DNA of 39,176 nucleotides from Ammonifex sp. (GTDB lineage: Bacteria; Bacillota; Desulfotomaculia; Desulfotomaculales; Ammonificaceae): assembly GCA_003604985.1 (NCBI GenBank), contig QZIW01000025.1, forward strand, positions 1 through 39,176, given 5' to 3'. This document shows positions 34,154 through 36,100 of this stretch, one piece after another; position 1 is the stretch's first letter, and every line of letters begins with the position of its first letter. A program made the position numbers and the translations under genes. A model generated the notes under the pieces. That model was not told the origin of the DNA and made no database searches. It saw only the letters and a program-made list of their open reading frames with translations.

Positions 34154-34409
34154 ATTTTTATCTCCCTCTGGTTCGTTATCCAGGTATCAAATAAAAGCTT
34201 AAGGAAAACCCACCTGGTTGTCAAGGAAATGAGTTGGATCCGATTTGGTCGTTCGACAGGATTTGCGCCAACGGCAGCGAATAAATTTAGCCTGTAGGGA
34301 TGCAACCACGAATTGGAGGAGTCCCTCAGACGATTAATCGTCGCCACCGGGGATGAAAATAGGGACCCGTAAGCGTCTTACTTAAATGCAGTAGTGTAAC
34401 ATAAACAAA

Positions 34410-34529
34410 ACGCGGTGAGAAGCGAGCAGTACAAGGAAGGCGCAGGCGGACGGGCCGGAGCGTATACCGGAAATACGTGAGGACCCGGCCGGCGAGCCTG
34501 ACGCAATAATGCGAAGCTTATCGCCGCGT
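34410..34529 (+). ncRNA. Candidate structured RNA/cis-regulatory leader upstream of the beta-CASP gene
   Basis: P1 ACGCGGTGAGAAGC(34410-34423)/GCTTATCGCCGCGT(34516-34529), 13 of 14 paired; P2 CAGGC/GCCTG; P3 CGGACGGG/CCCGGCCG with one A.G mismatch; P4 CGTAT/ATACG; hairpin CGCAataaTGCG. Confidence 0.65.
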
Positions 34530-34570
34530 CCATCGAAAGAAGTACTATTTTTTTGGAGGAGAGAGAAAGC

Positions 34571-36100
34571 ATGCGGTTGAGCTTTTACGGTGCGGCCCGG
34601 ACGGTAACGGGCTCTTGCTTCCTGGCGGAGGTTTCGGGCATGCGCGTGCTTGTCGACTGCGGCCTCTTCCAGGGGCCGCCCGAGGTCCGGGAACGAAACT
34701 TCAAACCTTTCCCTTTCCTACCCGCCGCCATCGATTTCTTGCTGCTGACTCATGCGCATATCGACCATTCGGGGCTTATCCCGCGTCTTTGCAGGGAAGG
34801 CTTCAGGGGGAAGATCCTGGCGACGGAGGCGTCCGTTGATCTCCTGGGGGTGCTTTTGCCCGACGCGGCCCACATCCAGGAGATGGAGACGGAGCAGAAA
34901 AACCGGAAAGGCAAGCGCGCGGGGAAGCCCCCGCTGGCCCCGCTTTATACCGTTGCGGACGCGGCCAGAAGCCTTCAATTTCTCGAGGGAGTCGGTTACG
35001 AAACGCCGGTCTCCCTTTCACCCGGGGTCACCGCTACCTTTCTCAACGCCGGCCACATCCTGGGTGCTTCAATGATTCTGTTGACCGTCAACGAAGGCAG
35101 CGTGCCGCTCCGTGTCCTATTTTCAGGTGACGTCGGCCGTAAGGGGCAGAGGTTTTTGAAAGATCCCGTTACGGTTGACGCGGCCGATTACGTAATCATG
35201 GAGTCCACATACGGGAACAGGCTTCACCCCGAAGAGAACGAGCTGTCGGTACTCCGCGAGGTAATATGGCGCGCATATAACAGGGGCGGCAACGTGATCA
35301 TACCGGCCTTTGCGGTGGAGCGGACACAGGACCTGCTTTACGATCTGAGCGAGCTTAACCACGCGGGTGGACTGCCGCCCGTCAAGGTGTACATAGACAG
35401 CCCTCTGGCCTCTGCGGTAACCAGTATTTTCAACCGCCACAGGGAATTGTACGACCAGGAAACGCAGTCACTGATCAGGGCGGGCCTGGACCCATTAAAT
35501 TCGGATTTCGTTCATTTTTCGGTCACTACCGAGGAGTCACGCGCGCTCAACGAGAGCCCGCAGAGCCTGGTCATCATTTCCGCGAGCGGTATGTGTGAGG
35601 CCGGGCGGATCCGCCACCACCTGAAACACAACCTCTGGCGTCCGGAGTCCGCCGTGGTGTTCGTCGGGTTCCAACCGGTAGGGACGCTCGGCCGGCGCAT
35701 CCTGGACGGCGAGCGAAGCGTTACCATTTTTGGCGAAGAGATCGCCGTCAGGGCCGAGATCGTAGAGCTTTCAGGCTACTCCGCCCATGCCGACCAGCCG
35801 GCGTTAATCAACTGGTTGAGTGGAATTACGCATAAGCCGAGGCAGGTTTTCGTTGTGCACGGCGAGCCGGATGCCGCGGAATTCCTGCGGGGCAGGATCG
35901 AGAGCGGACTTGGTATAAAAGCCGTGGTGCCCGATTTTGCTTCGTCCTGGACACTGGTTGCGGACGTCCGGGCAGAAGCGCTCTGGGATGCTTACCGGCG
36001 GCTCGGCGACCGAATCCAGGAGACTTTGCGGGCGGCCGACCCGGCGGAGACAGCCGAAATAGTCCACCGGCTGGAAGCGGTTTTTAATGGCAGGAAGTAG
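34571..36100 (+). CDS. Metallo-beta-lactamase fold/beta-CASP RNA-processing hydrolase (COG1236-like)
   Basis: THAHIDHSG metal motif, ESTYGNRLH, beta-CASP ISASGMCEAGRIRHHL and GYSAHADQ, VHGE. Confidence 0.93.
   Translation: MRLSFYGAARTVTGSCFLAEVSGMRVLVDCGLFQGPPEVRERNFKPFPFLPAAIDFLLLTHAHIDHSGLIPRLCREGFRGKILATEASVDLLGVLLPDAAHIQEMETEQKNRKGKRAGKPPLAPLYTVADAARSLQFLEGVGYETPVSLSPGVTATFLNAGHILGASMILLTVNEGSVPLRVLFSGDVGRKGQRFLKDPVTVDAADYVIMESTYGNRLHPEENELSVLREVIWRAYNRGGNVIIPAFAVERTQDLLYDLSELNHAGGLPPVKVYIDSPLASAVTSIFNRHRELYDQETQSLIRAGLDPLNSDFVHFSVTTEESRALNESPQSLVIISASGMCEAGRIRHHLKHNLWRPESAVVFVGFQPVGTLGRRILDGERSVTIFGEEIAVRAEIVELSGYSAHADQPALINWLSGITHKPRQVFVVHGEPDAAEFLRGRIESGLGIKAVVPDFASSWTLVADVRAEALWDAYRRLGDRIQETLRAADPAETAEIVHRLEAVFNGRK

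Follow-up and report, generated by a model that had tools for sequence, protein, structure and literature searches.

ERIC elements have served for decades as typing markers. They are described as MITE-like, with effects at the RNA level (PMC2229807, PMC10969869), and their termini and target duplication are TA (PMC2229807). In a limited search of the open-access literature, no account was found of ERIC relatives outside the Gammaproteobacteria or of the reason for the ERIC fold. A covariance model described below ties ERIC to repeats across phyla, in shells with different ends, and one of these repeats lies in the window, i.e., the whole stretch of 39,176 nucleotides of Ammonifex sp. DNA that was analysed (contig QZIW01000025.1). 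Like the ERIC (IRU) sequences of Enterobacteria, this repeat and its relatives are intergenic imperfect palindromes of ~120–130 bp, present in tens to hundreds of copies and with an apical hairpin of the form GGAGC-nTAC..GTAnGTGA. Unlike them, the element in the window carries a 5′ module of its own (M1), another 3′ end and no terminal inverted repeats (TIRs), and it sits at Shine-Dalgarno sequences (SDs). The TA duplication of ERIC is also unmatched, the window copy (class B) having a 9-bp TTGGAGGAG and a second class of copies (class A) having 8 bp.

The likeness to MITEs lies in the lack of an ORF, in apparent mobilisation in trans, in the TIRs and 8-bp target duplications of class A, and in the insertion polymorphism and element-free sites that were observed; the repeat differs from them in that the class-B shell of the window is without TIRs and no parent transposon was found. 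BOX, RIME and BIME elements, compared by architecture only, are similar in that modules combine, M1 being found with the core, with a different cargo or by itself. The short hairpin of M1 after a GGAG-like tetranucleotide, in many copies, recalls REP/REPIN (RAYT) elements, but the Y1 transposase genes of the genus are not flanked by the repeat.

The segment at 34410–34529 had been noted in a preliminary description as a candidate structured RNA upstream of a beta-CASP gene. It is the core of a dispersed multi-copy repeat and, with high probability, the structured core of a non-autonomous mobile element (a mosaic intergenic repeat) inserted at the SD of that gene. The features of the locus, all on the plus strand, are as follows.

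34313–34321, plus strand: upstream copy of the 9-bp direct repeat TTGGAGGAG, SD-like and identical to 34553–34561.
34322–34552, plus strand: whole dispersed repeat (class B), ~231 bp, delimited by comparison of copies and by the element-free site, the 5′ end being less certain.
34322–34361, plus strand: 5′ module M1, the hairpin GACGATTAATCGTC (34329–34342) followed by GGGGATGAAAAT, found elsewhere alone or with other 3′ parts.
34362–34404, plus strand: conserved linker GACCCGTAAGC...GTAACATAAAC, including a second, weak hairpin, from the alignment of copies.
34405–34532, plus strand: structured core, from the covariance model R1 (124.5 bits), covariation and z-score.
34455–34483, plus strand: most conserved part of the core, the hairpin CGGAGCGTA..TACGTGAGGA with the internal loop GGAG/TGAG, nearly invariant in the alignment columns and common to several phyla.
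34533–34552, plus strand: 3′ tail, consensus GAAAGAAGTACTATTTTC, the class-B right end, kept in class-B copies and replaced by a TIR in class A.
34553–34561, plus strand: downstream copy of TTGGAGGAG, SD for the beta-CASP gene, whose ATG follows after 9 nt.
34571–36100, plus strand: beta-CASP/metallo-beta-lactamase-fold protein of 509 aa, from the ORF and its orthologues.

In the window M1 comprises the hairpin GACGATTAATCGTC and GGATGAAAAT, the 3′ tail reads GAAAGAAGTACTATTTTT, and no TIRs were found in this class-B copy. The gap of 41 nt first given between the segment and the start codon at 34571 is correct. As to the limits of the segment, the sequence between them does fold, but the feature goes further, the core occupying 34405–34532 and the whole repeat ~34322–34552. 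Since M1 occurs without the core, either alone or joined to other 3′ parts, both in this genome and in others, the repeat is a mosaic. An M1...TATTTTC shell with a different cargo (TTACGTGGAACC...CTTGGCGGTTGATT), also ending right at SDs, was observed in the congener G002 (e.g., at C6 minus strand 139625, C4 60059 and C19 minus strand 7427, numbered along the strand read). At L281 and L285 (genomes G022 and G027, distant members of the order), a further conserved sequence, AATAGGGTTTGTGCTAT..., is found attached to M1.

The segment 34410–34529 closes on itself with a minimum free energy of −58.6 kcal/mol as compared with −40.3 ± 3.2 kcal/mol for shuffled sequences (z = −5.8), and none of 200 shuffles was as stable on the plus strand, in agreement, in outline, with the closed fold initially proposed; the opposite strand folds less well (z = −3.3). 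The covariation check suggested at the same time was carried out on 37 homologues and revealed compensatory changes at 25 of the 34 consensus pairs (RNAalifold). A direct count in the same homologues gave 94.3% paired cells in helices and changes on both sides in 145 cells of the core helices, and no measure was attained by any of 500 shuffles. When partner columns of the core alignment were slid the pairing signal was lost, a share of the difference from the slid versions being expected because the structure was derived from these same sequences. G.U cells outnumber A.C cells in the core helices (79 vs 22), which fits folding of the plus strand.

Covariation was found for the outer stem, the CGGACGGG/CCCGGCCG region, CGTAT/ATACG and the purine-rich loop between them, all part of the fold as first drawn. 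The local hairpin CGCAataaTGCG and the CAGGC/GCCTG helix of the same drawing are not conserved pairings, and long-range pairings replace both. The 3′ TGC pairs with the GCA of GCAGTAC (columns 23–28 with columns 109–114, with compensation), and the AG of AAGGAAG pairs in the conserved structure with the CT of CCTGAC. The GGAG/TGAG loop would allow tandem sheared G.A pairs, a conserved 3-nt bulge of a kink-turn not being evident. In line with the initial statement that the segment matches no riboswitch consensus, a scan of the window against Rfam gave no match that reached the gathering score, the stretch 34200–34700 was without one even with the limit relaxed to E = 10, and cores from other phyla had no Rfam match either. 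A phage collection searched with the element gave no match, and a literature search with sequence words of the core gave nothing relevant among the matches listed. The folded segment is real and has no Rfam family.

Recurrence of the sequence in related genomes, at first an impression, was borne out. Five copies were found by blastn in the genome of the window (G000), 36 in its congener G001 and, from 133 first-look candidates, at least 43 in G002. A covariance model made from 37 copies (R1) identified, at E ≤ 0.001, 11, 35 and 114 copies in G000, G001 and G002, respectively, and 13 and 6 copies in two other genera of the family, these copy numbers being lower bounds where the genomes are drafts. 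At the same threshold R1 gave no copies in three further genomes of the family.

All three genomes of the genus carry the element at the beta-CASP locus, the G001 copy being broken by long insertions. In G005, of the sister genus (73% protein identity), the upstream gene is the same and so is the flank as far as a single SD, and there is no element; nor was the element visible at other beta-CASP orthologues among those listed. Eight G001 copies have a recognisable orthologous downstream flank, and for seven of them no copy was found in G002, of which 1.95 of 2.8 Mb, assembled from stretches, was covered; at one of these seven sites another mosaic unit is present in G002.

The class-A units of G002 (176–181 bp), which have the core in common with class B, carry 11-bp TIRs (GTAACTATTCA) and, at several sites, 8-bp target duplications (e.g., GGAAAAAC and CTACTCCT, with GTCATTCT at a longer unit), and these are marks of transposition. 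In class B the matched 5′ and 3′ flanks share a mean of 5.68 as compared with 5.29 when permuted (p = 0.003), a similarity that is small because all the flanks resemble the SD consensus AGGAG. As this common consensus confounds the class-B repeat, the 9-bp TTGGAGGAG is a likely, not a proven, target duplication of the SD.

The position of the class-B copies was assessed in G002 by a strict test, in which an SD had to be followed by the start codon of an ORF of at least 50 codons, co-directional genes only being counted. Of the 84 copies with an intact 3′ end 55 passed, as compared with 894 of 20,000 random positions (4.5%) and with 1.6% on the opposite side, the fold enrichment being approximate because the random positions include non-intergenic DNA. 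Among the class-B copies that failed, many are followed by a small gene or by a further copy of the repeat. The start codons lie 23–35 nt after the core, mostly 28–30 nt, and the genes downstream of the copies are dozens of unrelated ones. A repeat at SDs that leaves an SD on either side would show mobile DNA entering gene leaders with little harm.

Two cores were observed in an rRNA operon (L360, G040:C1:2459000-2463000, minus strand, 1716–1839 and 2156–2280), the first ~13 nt after the 16S 3′ end and the other separating the second tRNA from the 23S gene; further core matches elsewhere in this genome may be other rRNA operons. A copy of a second subfamily in the genome of the window (L005, G000:C82, 945–1069, minus strand) stops ~8 nt short of the 5′ end of the tmRNA gene. 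Occurrence in leaders, in the 16S-tRNA-23S spacers of one genome and just before tmRNA would place the core in transcripts.

The apical motif, CGGAGCGTA-N7-10-TACGTGAGSAYC, matched at least 120 contigs of species genomes, the taxa among the matches listed being Mesorhizobium, Paenibacillus, Listeria, a Rickettsia endosymbiont, Myxococcales and Clostridia, and the matches inspected sit within long imperfect palindromes whose arms differ. Many full-length cross-phylum matches of 30–78 bits were obtained with R1, the apical share of their score being due to selection and the rest not. Since R1, the model of the genus, gave no ERIC match up to E = 10 with default filters, a broader model (R2) was built from the cross-phylum matches, without ERIC, its automatic alignment including a few wrong-strand matches. 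Of 200 genomes taken from the phylum, 30 gave core matches with R2 (E ≤ 1e-5), and several copies per genome were common. In E. coli the top matches of R2 were the ERICs of all five sites examined, at ahpCF (32.9 bits), aceF-lpdA (30.1), mobH (19–26), rpsB-tsf (21.4) and ybiT (15.5), the best non-ERIC score in 49 kb of E. coli (background) being 11.9 bits. The match of R2 to ERIC shows a relationship or strong convergence, not identity. We read it as pointing to a common ERIC-like superfamily that would include the window core and ERIC, the alternative being convergence on a similar hairpin; a structure-selected core belonging to this superfamily is the best reading. Such a cross-phylum core splits the question of what moves the element from that of what the folded core does, and the second becomes testable.

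If the segment is the core of an inserted mobile element, the insertion at the beta-CASP SD would have taken place in an ancestor of the genus, with an enzyme acting in trans as the probable mover and the 9-bp repeat as its presumed target duplication. The SD now on both sides (TTGGAGGAG) suggests that the gene kept a working SD after the insertion, the element thereby becoming part of the beta-CASP leader. The core may have been kept folded through acting as RNA in the transcripts that it entered, by way of tolerance, stability or processing; it would then be selected as RNA rather than as a transposase binding site, and in RNA its fold would make insertions tolerable. Since one core is met in shells with unrelated ends, the transposing enzymes would see the ends, not the core. 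The covariation and conserved loops exceed the need of a neutral hairpin, so that some cis function is possible.

The main rival, which is less probable, keeps the mobile element and has it folded as single-stranded DNA (a replication or transposition intermediate, a cruciform or a protein-binding hairpin), not as RNA. Transposition by way of ssDNA hairpins is established for REP/IS200-type elements (cf. PMC2817692), and here a palindromic core lies mid-element in elements with different ends; yet it is the core, not the ends, that is conserved across shells with unrelated ends, the copies occupy transcribed DNA, namely leaders, rRNA spacers and the stretch just upstream of tmRNA, and the Y1 association is absent. 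G.T wobbles are tolerated in ssDNA as well, so the count of G.U and A.C cells does not decide between RNA and ssDNA.

It is improbable that the repeat is a cis-regulatory leader, whether a riboswitch or an autoregulatory element, set before the genes of a large regulon and controlling translation from the adjacent SD. It is absent at orthologous genes in the congener (7/8) and in the sister genus, the downstream genes are unrelated, the genome of the window has far fewer copies than its congeners, the G001 copy at the beta-CASP locus is interrupted, other copies bear TIRs and target duplications, and the SD lies outside the helices; these observations are set against a co-directional, fixed position before SDs, strong covariation and invariant loop residues. 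Autoregulation of the beta-CASP gene, one of two functions considered in the preliminary description, is not supported, nor is any other beta-CASP-specific role, because the repeat is multi-copy, dispersed before dozens of unrelated genes and absent in the sister genus, and the G001 copy at this locus is interrupted. The second, a stand-alone non-coding RNA gene, would fit the compact, stable and conserved fold but is highly improbable for a dispersed repeat that has more than 100 copies in one genome and abuts the SD of the next gene.

The preferred reading, an inserted mobile element with a structure-selected core, may be extended to the superfamily as a conjecture that we regard as rather unlikely. 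One structured core, from Firmicutes to Alphaproteobacteria and including ERIC, would be carried in many unrelated mobile shells because it acts as RNA and thereby lets the shells insert harmlessly into leaders, operons and stable-RNA operons, and one shell would home to SDs and regenerate them.

Two candidate partners were considered for the mobilisation. No IS66 transposase, as a partner of class A, was found in the genus. Ten Y1 transposase loci of the genus were without M1, right-end or TIR motifs, one of them having a core near the edge of the stretch examined, and a RAYT/Y1 partner was rejected, there being no linkage to the repeat in the genus.

Six copies of an element of ~158 bp, 96–100% identical and with TIRs GTTCAAAAAGTCC and TTTAA/TTAAA duplications, were observed in one of the 30 genomes with R2 matches (L341–L346, G147). 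By its sequence this element is taken to be a recently active relative, and its copies are good material for finding the mobilising enzyme. In another genome (L348–L352, G166) the core and a constant 5′ piece are bracketed by a terminator-like hairpin that is specific to each locus and present in two copies, with direct repeats of up to 24 bp (AAACAGACTGAATGTATCAGTCTG; AAACGAGCCCATGCAGGCTCGTTT), as if the insertion had duplicated the whole terminator.
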